From Shewanella gelidimarina (lineage in GTDB: Bacteria; Pseudomonadota; Gammaproteobacteria; Enterobacterales; Shewanellaceae), in NCBI RefSeq assembly GCF_023283945.1, contig NZ_JAKIKW010000001.1, positions 236,807-300,806 on the forward strand: 64,000 bases of DNA, written 5' to 3'. The notes beneath the pieces are model-generated. The model saw only the letters and a program-made list of their open reading frames with translations. It did no database searches and was not told where the DNA came from. The position numbers and the translations under genes were made by a program. Numbering within the stretch: the first letter of the stretch is position 1; each line of letters begins with the position of its first letter. Shown here one piece after another: positions 59,787-63,889 of this stretch.

Positions 59787-60254
59787 TTAAGTGTGCTTAG
59801 TGTGCAGCACTTCTAACAGCTTATCTTCAAGCGCAAAACGTGTTTCCATCGCATGCCCAAGTGATGACAAATCTTTATCTAGGTGAAACAGCACTTTTTC
59901 ATCGTCGGCTTCGGTGTACTTGTCGTTGAAGTCGAGCGCAGTGTCGGTTGTTTCGCTAATCTGTGGCACCAATTGCTGCGCAATCTCTTGGCTTGAGCTG
60001 CCATTCTTCTCGCAAGCGGTGACTACTTGGTTATAAATTTCGAAATGGCCTTCAGAGACGTAGTCCATTAATTGATCGCAAAATGCTTTAACAGAATCAA
60101 ATGCAGGTAAGGAATTCTCTGAAACTTCATATGGAGGAATACCAGCGATTTGGCAGTAGTTGATCAGTAGCTTACGACGATTGTTTAACCATTGATCTAT
60201 AAGAGTATTTGAACCGCCCCATTTTTGTTCGGCTTTTTCTAACTTTCTTAGCAT
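59787..60254 (-). CDS. rsd: Regulator of sigma D, Rsd (Rsd/AlgQ family)
   Basis: 155 residues (E. coli 158). Helical anti-sigma-70 protein; N-terminus MLRKLEKAEQKWGGSNTLIDQWLNNRRKLLINYCQIAGI and C-terminal LSSLGHAMETRFALEDKLLEVL match Rsd. It promotes sigma factor exchange in stationary phase. The frame extends to 60317, but the ATG at 60254 has GGGGAAG in front and gives the family start. A candidate small RNA or leader lies upstream on the same strand. Confidence 0.9.
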   Translation of the reverse strand: MLRKLEKAEQKWGGSNTLIDQWLNNRRKLLINYCQIAGIPPYEVSENSLPAFDSVKAFCDQLMDYVSEGHFEIYNQVVTACEKNGSSSQEIAQQLVPQISETTDTALDFNDKYTEADDEKVLFHLDKDLSSLGHAMETRFALEDKLLEVLHTKHT

Positions 60255-60385
60255 GATCTTCCCCAATAAGAATCTATCCCTAACATCTAATGTAGGGACA
60301 AGTACTGTGTTGATCAACTACTTTTCGACGATTTAGGCGGAATAACTGAATGGACATACCAGCTAACAGGTAAGGCTGGGGCGCT

Positions 60386-60480
60386 AAAAAGAAAAAGCCC
60401 AGTGATAGAATTCTATCGCTGGGCGAGTATAGTTTTTGCAGGCTCGATGCGACGAGCTCTTGATTGTTCTTGCTAGCGCA
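60386..60480 (-). ncRNA. Candidate small RNA or terminated rsd leader (about 95 nt)
   Basis: Read on the minus strand: promoter at 60486-60514, then about 95 nt containing the stem GCTCG/CGAGC. It ends in a strong intrinsic terminator, GCCCAGCGATAG-AATT-CTATCACTGGGC (60397-60424, one G-U-type mismatch), followed by TTTTTCTTTTT. The terminator lies about 130 bases before rsd. It is either an independent small RNA or an attenuator in the rsd leader. No known RNA family recognised. Confidence 0.6.
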
Positions 60481-60485
60481 GACTT

Positions 60486-60514
60486 TTTATACCAAAGCTA
60501 AGCAATTGGTGCAA
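60486..60514 (-). promoter_or_regulatory. Sigma-70 promoter for the candidate small RNA
   Basis: TTGCAC (complement of 60509-60514), 17-base spacer, TATAAA (complement of 60486-60491). Both hexamers are close to consensus with ideal spacing; start predicted near 60480. Confidence 0.65.
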
Positions 60515-60776: not shown

Positions 60777-61841
60777 ATGGCAGAATTAAAGAATGATCGT
60801 TATTTACGTGCTTTATTAAAACAGCCTGTCGACAGAACACCTGTCTGGATGATGCGTCAAGCTGGTCGTTATCTTCCTGAGTACAAAGCAACCCGTGCGG
60901 AAGCCGGTGATTTCATGTCGCTTTGTAAAGACAAAGATTTGGCTTGTGAAGTGACTTTGCAACCACTACGTCGTTATGACCTAGATGCTGCAATTTTATT
61001 CTCTGATATTCTTACTATTCCTGATGCGATGGGACTTGGTCTGTATTTTGAAACTGGCGAAGGCCCACGTTTTCAACGTCCAACCGATACTATCGACTCA
61101 ATCAAAAAGCTTTGCATCCCAGATCCAGAAGACGAGCTTGGTTATGTGATGCGTGCTGTCAGCACCATTCGTCGTGAGCTTAAAGGCGAAGTGCCTTTAA
61201 TTGGTTTCTCTGGTTCTCCTTGGACGCTAGCGACTTATATGGTTGAAGGCGGTTCAAGCAAGACTTTCGAAAAGATCAAGAAAATGGCTTATGAAGAGCC
61301 AAAAACATTGCACATGTTGCTTGATAAGTTAGCTGACTCAGTCATCTTGTACCTGAACGCTCAGGTTGCTAACGGCGCTCAGTCACTTATGATCTTTGAT
61401 TCATGGGGCGGTGCACTTTCTCACCACGCTTACCGTGAATTCTCACTGCGTTATATGCAGAAAATCGTTGATGGCTTAACTCGCCATGCAGACGGTCGTC
61501 AAGTGCCTGTGACTCTGTTCACCAAAGGTGGCGGACTATGGCTTGAATCTATGGCTGAAACAGGTTGTGATGCCTTAGGTCTAGATTGGACTGTTGATAT
61601 CGGTGATGCACGTCGTCGTGTTGGGCATAAAGTTGCTCTTCAAGGAAACATGGACCCATCGGTACTTTACGCCTCTCCTGAGCGTATTCGTCAAGAAGTA
61701 GAACAAATTCTATCTTCTTACGGTGAAGGTACTGGTCACGTATTTAACTTGGGCCATGGTATTCACCAACATGTTGATCCTGAGCATGCGGGCGCGTTCA
61801 TCAACTCAGTTACTGAGTTGTCAGGTAAATACCACAAGTAA
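60777..61841 (+). CDS. hemE: Uroporphyrinogen decarboxylase HemE
   Basis: 354 residues. Family signatures [15 protein letters not shown] near 21-35 and [17 protein letters not shown] near 148 are complete; the catalytic Asp is in the [14 protein letters not shown] segment. Converts uroporphyrinogen III to coproporphyrinogen III in haem synthesis. Single gene with its own terminator. Confidence 0.97.
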
Positions 61842-61900: not shown

Positions 61901-62250
61901 CTATTTGATGATATCTAGAGTATTTTGTGCTTCGATAGGAGTCGGTTTAACACCTAATCGTGACCTAATCGGTTGCCGTTCAATTCTAAAGTCACTGCCT
62001 TTTCTGGGCTGACTTTCGATTTCACCGTTTTAAAGCGATAACTGTTGCCTCACAATCGACAGTCCCACCCCAAGTTGTGGCAATGCCGTTTAAGTCGCTG
62101 CTACGTTCATCTGGGGGCAATAATAACCCAGTATCGATATAGCTTTGCAGTGATGTTAGCGGGGTCTTTAAGTCGTGCGACAGGTGCAACATAAACTCAT
62201 ACGGTTCTTCTCTTTTTAGGTTAATAGCTTTAATGATTCTTATTACAAAA
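61901..62250 (-). pseudogene. Relic of a sensor histidine kinase
   Basis: On the minus strand, 62250 down to about 62070 reads an HisKA dimerisation domain with the H-box EFMLHLSHDLKTPLTSLQSY. It then jumps, with a +1 frame change, to the G2 box and end of an ATPase domain: LGVGLSIVRQQLSL-stop-NGEIESQPRKGSDFRIE, to a stop at 61901-61903. The N box, G1 box and all sensor sequence are gone, and one in-frame TAA interrupts the last part. So this is a deleted, decayed kinase. No response regulator remains nearby. Confidence 0.8.
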
Positions 62251-62851
62251 ATTAATAATGGTTATTATATTTAAACTACAGTATGAGTACTTTATAAAAT
62301 AAAACACATTGTTAATAAATGGTAATTATTCGGAATGAATATCATTTAAATTAAAATGTTGAAATCCCAGTAGATTAGACATTACGAGTAAGCTTTAAGA
62401 TGTAATTATTACTATATTTTAATATGCAGCTATTTATATTATTAAGTTTGTATGCAATAAGTATTTTAGGCTTGGTGATTTTTATTTTTAACTGATTTAT
62501 ACGAGAGTATATAATATTGTGATTAGAGGTTCTTTACTTGAATAGCATACCACCTCTACATTTAACTTTTTAAATGTTACTTTTCGCATGTAAGCTATTG
62601 ATATAAGGTCATTATACGCCATGCGCATTCATCGTTTACATTTCCTAGATTTGTATTTATTTTAGATGACGAAATGTGTGACTGAATGTATCATTGTTGT
62701 TTTTGTTGGTGGTGGTGTCTATTAGCGTGGGTAATACTTGTATTAGATTTTTCTTAGTCTTCATGTATGTATTTATTTCTATAACTGAAAGTGTTATTGT
62801 TTGAAGATGATTTTAATTTAAATATTAATATATATTCATGGACGTATTACA
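62251..62851. other. 600-bp very AT-rich region upstream of the last LysR gene
   Basis: No open frame, repeat or terminator that I can support. Marked AT-richness compared with the neighbouring core genes; it should hold the LysR promoter. Confidence 0.45.
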
Positions 62852-63889
62852 ATGCGAAAGGAACTCTCTAAATTAGATTATTTCACACTTAAAGTTCTCA
62901 TTGGTTTATTTGAATTTAAGAATTGCAGTGTCGTAGCTGAAAAATTAAATACAACTCAGCCTAAAGTCAGCCGTGCCTTAAGCAGCCTCCGTGAAGTCAT
63001 CCAGAATGAATTGTTTGTGCGTCAGCAGTATGGCTTACAACCAAATTCGATGGCCGAAAAAATCTATCCTCTGGCGAAATCGATAGTCGCTACACTGGAA
63101 GAAATAGACCAGGTGGCTATGAGTCAATCAGATGTGATACGTGTCGTGAATGTGGCAGTTCAGGAGCATATGTCTGCATTTTTTTTGGAGGCAATATCTG
63201 AAGTCTGTATTCATTTGAAACAGGAAGTGAGCGTTAACATTCAGCCTTGGTGTGATAATGTTTCCCAACTGATTGCCCAAGGTAAGTTGGACTATGCAAT
63301 CACTGTTAACTCAACTTATCACGAGATGATAGAAAACCTCGAATTGGGGGAGGTAAGTTACCGGTTCGTCGTTGCCAAGAAAGATCATCCCATTTTTCGA
63401 AAGCCTCTGAATTATTCATCGCTTATCGAAAATAGACTTGTTTTTATCAATTACTGCCAAGTGGGTTCGAAGCCAAACTGGTTCGAATCCATTGTGAAGC
63501 AGCGAGGAGAGGAATTAAAACTCATCTTAAAGACCTCTTGTCACAACATGGCGCTGGATCATATCGTTAAATCCGATGACGTGTGTTGTACCGCATCCAT
63601 TTTTGCCTATCAATATTTTAAGAATCGTGATGATATTGACTTTATCGATGCCACAGACTTTTGTCATGTTGAGTTAGCTAAGGCTAAAAAAGAATTAGTG
63701 CCGTCAGATCATCAAAAAGTTTATTATTACCTGCAATATCATCATTCTAATGAGCATGACTTTACTCCTCTTTTGTCGGAAGTATTGAAGCGAAAAATTG
63801 ACTTGATGCAAGATGAATATGAACAGTCTAAATCACTCGGCGCTAAAATAGACACAGCGAACGTTAGAACGCCGATAGTTAAGCCCTAA
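62852..63889 (+). CDS. LysR-family transcriptional regulator
   Basis: 345 residues. Winged helix-turn-helix at about 8-70 (TLKVLIGLFEFKNCSVVAEKLNTTQPKVSRALSSLREVIQNELFVR), then a LysR substrate-binding-like domain with several Cys, and a charged C-terminal extension beyond the usual 300 residues. No clear ribosome site precedes the ATG. No target gene is visible; the window ends 111 bases later. The AT-rich surroundings and the kinase relic suggest an accessory, possibly acquired, region. Confidence 0.85.
   Translation: MRKELSKLDYFTLKVLIGLFEFKNCSVVAEKLNTTQPKVSRALSSLREVIQNELFVRQQYGLQPNSMAEKIYPLAKSIVATLEEIDQVAMSQSDVIRVVNVAVQEHMSAFFLEAISEVCIHLKQEVSVNIQPWCDNVSQLIAQGKLDYAITVNSTYHEMIENLELGEVSYRFVVAKKDHPIFRKPLNYSSLIENRLVFINYCQVGSKPNWFESIVKQRGEELKLILKTSCHNMALDHIVKSDDVCCTASIFAYQYFKNRDDIDFIDATDFCHVELAKAKKELVPSDHQKVYYYLQYHHSNEHDFTPLLSEVLKRKIDLMQDEYEQSKSLGAKIDTANVRTPIVKP

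Follow-up and report, generated by a model that had tools for sequence, protein, structure and literature searches.

The intergenic region between rsd and hemE in Shewanella gelidimarina holds an unannotated small RNA gene with its own promoter and its own terminator. As judged from the positions of these two signals, from its fold (z -4.2) and from its conservation as a unit, the predicted small RNA of about 91 to 95 nt lies on the minus strand at 60386..60480 of the window, which is the whole stretch of 64,000 nucleotides that was analysed. The genes of the neighbourhood are acnB, rsd and hemE; rsd (59787..60254, minus strand) encodes 155 amino acids from an ATG start (Pfam Rsd_AlgQ, 2.9e-61), and hemE (60777..61841, plus strand) is the divergent neighbour (Pfam URO-D, 3.4e-143). 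Computational comparison establishes the presence, architecture, conservation and covariation of the gene and its independence from a fixed downstream gene, and we infer from its sequence that it is transcribed. It is very probably a real and undescribed regulatory RNA, as opposed to a switch for rsd. We consider it likely that this gene stands alone and specifies a non-coding RNA of about 91 nt which acts in trans, with Hfq, by pairing through its 5′ region.

Promoter, terminator and folding of the predicted small RNA

The promoter on the minus strand consists of the -35 hexamer TTGCAC (60509..60514), which is preceded by an A-tract, and the extended -10 element TGG-TATAAA (60486..60494, with TATAAA itself at 60491-60486), and both elements are conserved across loci. 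The hexamers are separated by a 17-nt spacer ending in TGG. A preliminary description had called this promoter near-consensus; the TTGCAC-17-TATAAA arrangement is present, but the term was generous, since TTGCAC agrees with the consensus TTGACA at only 3/6 positions, and a generic promoter scan in which 9/12 positions are needed misses it. As a sigma-70-type extended -10 promoter it would start the small RNA near 60480 (±2), as calculated from the promoter position. The same description had placed an intrinsic terminator after the promoter on the same strand, and this was found at 60386..60424 (z -5.7), with an 11-pair stem at 60424-60397 that has one C-A mismatch and a U-rich tail, TTTTTCTTTTT, at 60396-60386. 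A generic scan omits this terminator, probably owing to the stem mismatch. The terminator would end the small RNA near 60390, ahead of rsd's own predicted promoter, and its position puts the 3′ end in the U-tract at 60396-60386. Because the -35 hexamer agrees at half of its positions and the stem carries a mismatch, the claim is carried by comparison between genomes and not by a match to consensus. The reported lack of a coding frame between promoter and terminator also holds: ATG, GTG and TTG are all absent from the 99-nt transcript region of the window, which gives no support to a leader peptide here.

Folding of 60479-60389 gave -29.3 kcal/mol (z -4.2). The 5′ end is predicted to be unpaired, save for a two-pair closure, up to hairpin 1 (GCUCG / CGAGC, 60442..60457, minus strand). 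This 5′ end contains a near-invariant core, GCGCUAGCAAGAACAAUCAAGAG (60457..60479, minus strand), with 95-100% identity in 70 loci, and the core is made up of a candidate seed (GCUAGCRAA, common to families) and an A-rich linker.

Conservation in Shewanella and in other families of the order

A search with a query of 221 bases found the element in 97/97 genomes of the same genus, and it is flanked by rsd and hemE in 70/70 loci taken out from the genus. When the whole hemE-rsd gap was aligned, identity to the window was about 100% over 60478-60457, was high at the promoter hexamers, the hairpin and the terminator, and was about 20-50% in most intergenic DNA on either side of the element. The conserved or covarying parts are therefore the promoter hexamers, the 5′ stretch CGCUAGCAAGAACAAUCAAG, the small hairpin and the terminator, and not the flanks. 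A TTGNNN-TATAAA promoter is present in 69/70 genus loci, with TTGC at -35 in 68 of these 69 and TTGCAC in 52; the sequence of the spacer is free, while its length is 17 nt in 68/69. For the terminator and hairpin pairs of 42 distinct genus sequences, 97.6% of cells are paired, compared to 30-40% in slid controls, and 11 of these pairs have changes on both sides; in the terminator, both-side changes occur in 9/12 pairs within the genus. As for an independent intergenic small RNA, a conserved promoter and an intrinsic terminator flank a short non-coding stretch, and conservation and compensatory changes exceed those of the flanking DNA. The small RNA core is also better conserved than the protein encoded next to it, Rsd being 47-60% identical in more distant members of the genus.

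A covariance model built from the genus sequences was used for searches of the family and the order, the check proposed in the preliminary description. Within the family it added 12 matches from two other genera; Ferrimonas accounts for 11, every one beside rsd and hemE. Elsewhere in the order, other families gave weaker matches. Homologues are present in Ferrimonas and in at least four further families. A Ferrimonas-type small RNA was also seen in NZ_JAHVJZ010000006.1 (L131), whose species label, Marinobacter nauticus, looks wrong. A second R1 match (G000:C27:3350) has no GCTAGC core and was rejected as a chance terminator match. The small RNA was undetected beside rsd in several families (f2, f11, f12, f15, f16 and others), and in the class-wide model search only 11 candidates were scored per genome, which gives no basis for calling it absent outside the order.

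In the other families, the layout comprises a TTGCA-type -35, a TATAA -10, a 5′ end with GCGCTAGCAAA or GAGCTAGCGAA, a AAGAAGCTC hairpin and the terminator. GCUAGC is kept in most of them, and the linker differs between families in length and sequence. In a structure-fitted alignment of 28 sequences across families, a procedure that favours covariation, every one of the five hairpin 1 pairs covaries, as do 11/12 terminator pairs; paired cells amounted to 95.4% across families, compared to 30-47% in slid controls for the genus and the families. The compensatory changes in both helices point to function at the RNA level. The free small RNA that had been one of two earlier proposals is thus borne out, as far as sequence can tell, by promoter, 5′ core, hairpin and terminator being conserved as a unit throughout the genus and more widely.

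The genes around the small RNA change between lineages. Both rsd and hemE adjoin it in family f20; f6 has hemE beside it, and in some cases rsd is not close by. In f4 and f13 it lies between tex and dsbB (both named by eye from translations), and in f4 dsbB is followed by rsd. Loci with the tex-small RNA-dsbB order are L097, L098, L118, L130 and L124, some of which have rsd beyond dsbB, hinting that dsbB-rsd is the older arrangement. Depending on the lineage, the downstream gene is rsd, dsbB, a GFA-like ORF or a subtilase-like ORF (the last two named by eye). The neighbour common to most families is hemE, which lies on the opposite side from rsd, and the link to sigma-factor control that had been suggested comes down to adjacency with rsd. 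In the two-replicon genomes of f21, which are probably Vibrio, a divergent version lies upstream of hemE in 8/8 genomes read, one of them weaker. This version carries TTGCACCC...TGTTAAAAA, TCGCTAGCGAAAA, a hairpin and the terminator; since its model scores are only about 18-21 bits, the case for homology there is made by its position together with the 5′ core that it shares. These Vibrio-like genomes (L181, L182 and L294-L299) also have, ahead of the terminator, a CATCTCATAACGACATCTTACTTACCCCCTCC stretch that is conserved to a striking degree and that the Shewanella version does not have.

Proposed mode of action and alternative readings

An unpaired 5′ end, a strong terminator and a U-tail are the anatomy of Hfq-type trans-acting small RNAs. 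By analogy, the RNA would act in trans through base pairing, probably with Hfq: its unstructured, near-invariant 5′ region, GCGCUAGCAAGAACAAUCAAGA, would pair with target RNAs, and Hfq would hold the A-rich linker and the terminator U-tail, which are the only Hfq-type features in the sequence. Pairing of the 5′ region with the start regions of the adjacent genes was no better than with shuffles in 70 loci (mean z +0.34 for rsd and +0.57 for hemE). The leader of gtrA (hemA) was tested because Hfq has been tied to heme through gtrA, with an unidentified sRNA raised as one possibility (PMC4214671); pairing there was also no better than with shuffles (mean z +0.31 in 24 genomes). When seven genomes were searched for the complement of the core with up to 3 mismatches, the sole exact match was the small RNA gene itself; the matches were not concentrated near start codons, and no conserved leader target was found. 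In a search of five genomes, TTGCTAGCGC had 23 sites in this genome compared to 5 for a reversed control, mostly within coding regions and away from starts; because this control has a different CTAG content, the excess is not interpretable.

The pairing searches thus yielded no target, which would also fit an RNA whose core and hairpin 1 titrate a protein, in the way that CsrB-type RNAs titrate CsrA and 6S RNA titrates RNA polymerase, in place of pairing with mRNA. That the conserved single-stranded core adjoins the covarying hairpin at a near-constant place agrees with such a role. However, inspection of the transcript found neither the repeated GGA motifs in hairpin loops that mark CsrA-titrating RNAs of the CsrB/RsmY type nor a long 6S-like stem, no Rfam family matches, and a linker that varies among families is more in keeping with an RNA that pairs or binds Hfq. 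We regard protein titration as unlikely.

Slightly less probable still is the second of the earlier proposals, a transcription attenuator in the rsd leader, in which an mRNA starting at 60480 would set rsd expression through conditional bypass of the terminator. The small RNA and rsd are on the same strand, the distance from the terminator to the rsd ATG is 95-319 nt (median 135) in the Shewanella loci inspected, and the synteny of rsd with the unit is constant throughout the genus. However, a conserved block in the genus alignment marks a predicted rsd promoter, TTGATC-17-TACATT (60289..60317, minus strand; TTGATC at 60317-60312 and TACATT at 60294-60289), located after the small RNA terminator. 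This block makes the ATG at 60254, which is preceded by a likely ribosome-binding site, GGGGAAGA, the likely start of rsd, in preference to the TTG further upstream, at 60317, chosen by a mechanical ORF caller. The promoter is present in most loci and is not universal, since L058 and L068 differ in the upstream sequence. The DNA between the terminator and the rsd promoter is not conserved, and inspection of the alignment showed no evident conserved partner for an antiterminator. In an attenuator the regulated gene would always follow, without a separate downstream promoter; here such a promoter is predicted in most loci, and elsewhere the unit precedes dsbB or unrelated genes, depending on the lineage, which together make a leader or attenuator unlikely.

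A promoter or operator acting on rsd or hemE at the DNA level, with an incidental terminator and no functional RNA, is the least credible reading and very improbable: the core includes the promoter start region and contains the palindrome GCTAGC, and since it opens at the predicted start of transcription, promoter function could explain part of its conservation, but the compensatory changes favour the RNA level and the layout of the whole unit is kept in families with different neighbours.

Relation to known RNAs and features near hemE

The small RNA read as a trans-acting regulator resembles the RybB, OmrA and MicA type, Hfq-dependent RNAs of gammaproteobacteria with a seed at the 5′ end, in having about 90 nt, its own sigma-70-type promoter, a conserved unpaired 5′ end and a terminator with a U-tail. 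It differs from them in sharing no Rfam sequence family and in its core, GCUAGCAA, which is unlike an anti-Shine-Dalgarno seed. Neither the window nor the homologous loci from other families gave a match that reached the gathering score of any Rfam 15 family; a snoRNA match at a permissive Rfam threshold was a chance match (E 5.2). In the same genus, RyhB of Shewanella oneidensis also uses Hfq, and hemE (SO_0435) is among the candidate RyhB-repressed genes in a table of PMC5826389; RyhB is a separate, Fur-repressed gene, and the RNA described here has no Rfam match to it. Predicted cis-regulatory terminators and attenuators in Shewanella 5′-UTRs (PMC2659441) are likewise genus-wide terminator-like structures upstream of genes, whereas the unit here would be transcribed from a dedicated promoter, with a separate predicted promoter for rsd beyond it; the main text of that paper does not name rsd or hemE. 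Both genes are also absent from the main text and the table of 16 cis RNAs of the WP3 survey. A search of the open-access literature, in which "hemE" is indistinguishable from "heme", returned no description of the small RNA. It may already sit unnamed in an RNA-seq table, or be listed under a number in a published prediction of Shewanella small RNAs (PMC5471319).

Characterised small RNAs are few in Shewanella, and a core that is more conserved than Rsd, with homologues in several families, makes this RNA a specific candidate for the role of core regulator. We tentatively propose, as a possibility to which we give well below even weight, an undescribed, order-wide small RNA family, ancestral beside hemE and rsd, whose near-frozen 5′ core GCUAGCRAA would act on shared conserved partners and possibly link heme supply, respiration and growth phase. 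Shewanella hfq mutants have strong growth and heme phenotypes (PMC4214671), and such a family, if real, could explain part of these defects.

Downstream of hemE, a 56-aa ORF on the minus strand (62022-62192) contains part of the phospho-acceptor domain of a histidine kinase, LSHDLKTPLTSLQ (HisKA, E 3e-5, below cut-off), and is probably what is left of a sensor kinase gene. It is followed by a strongly AT-rich stretch without long ORFs (62240-62850), ahead of a gene for a LysR-type regulator (62852-63889; HTH_1, 1.4e-8).
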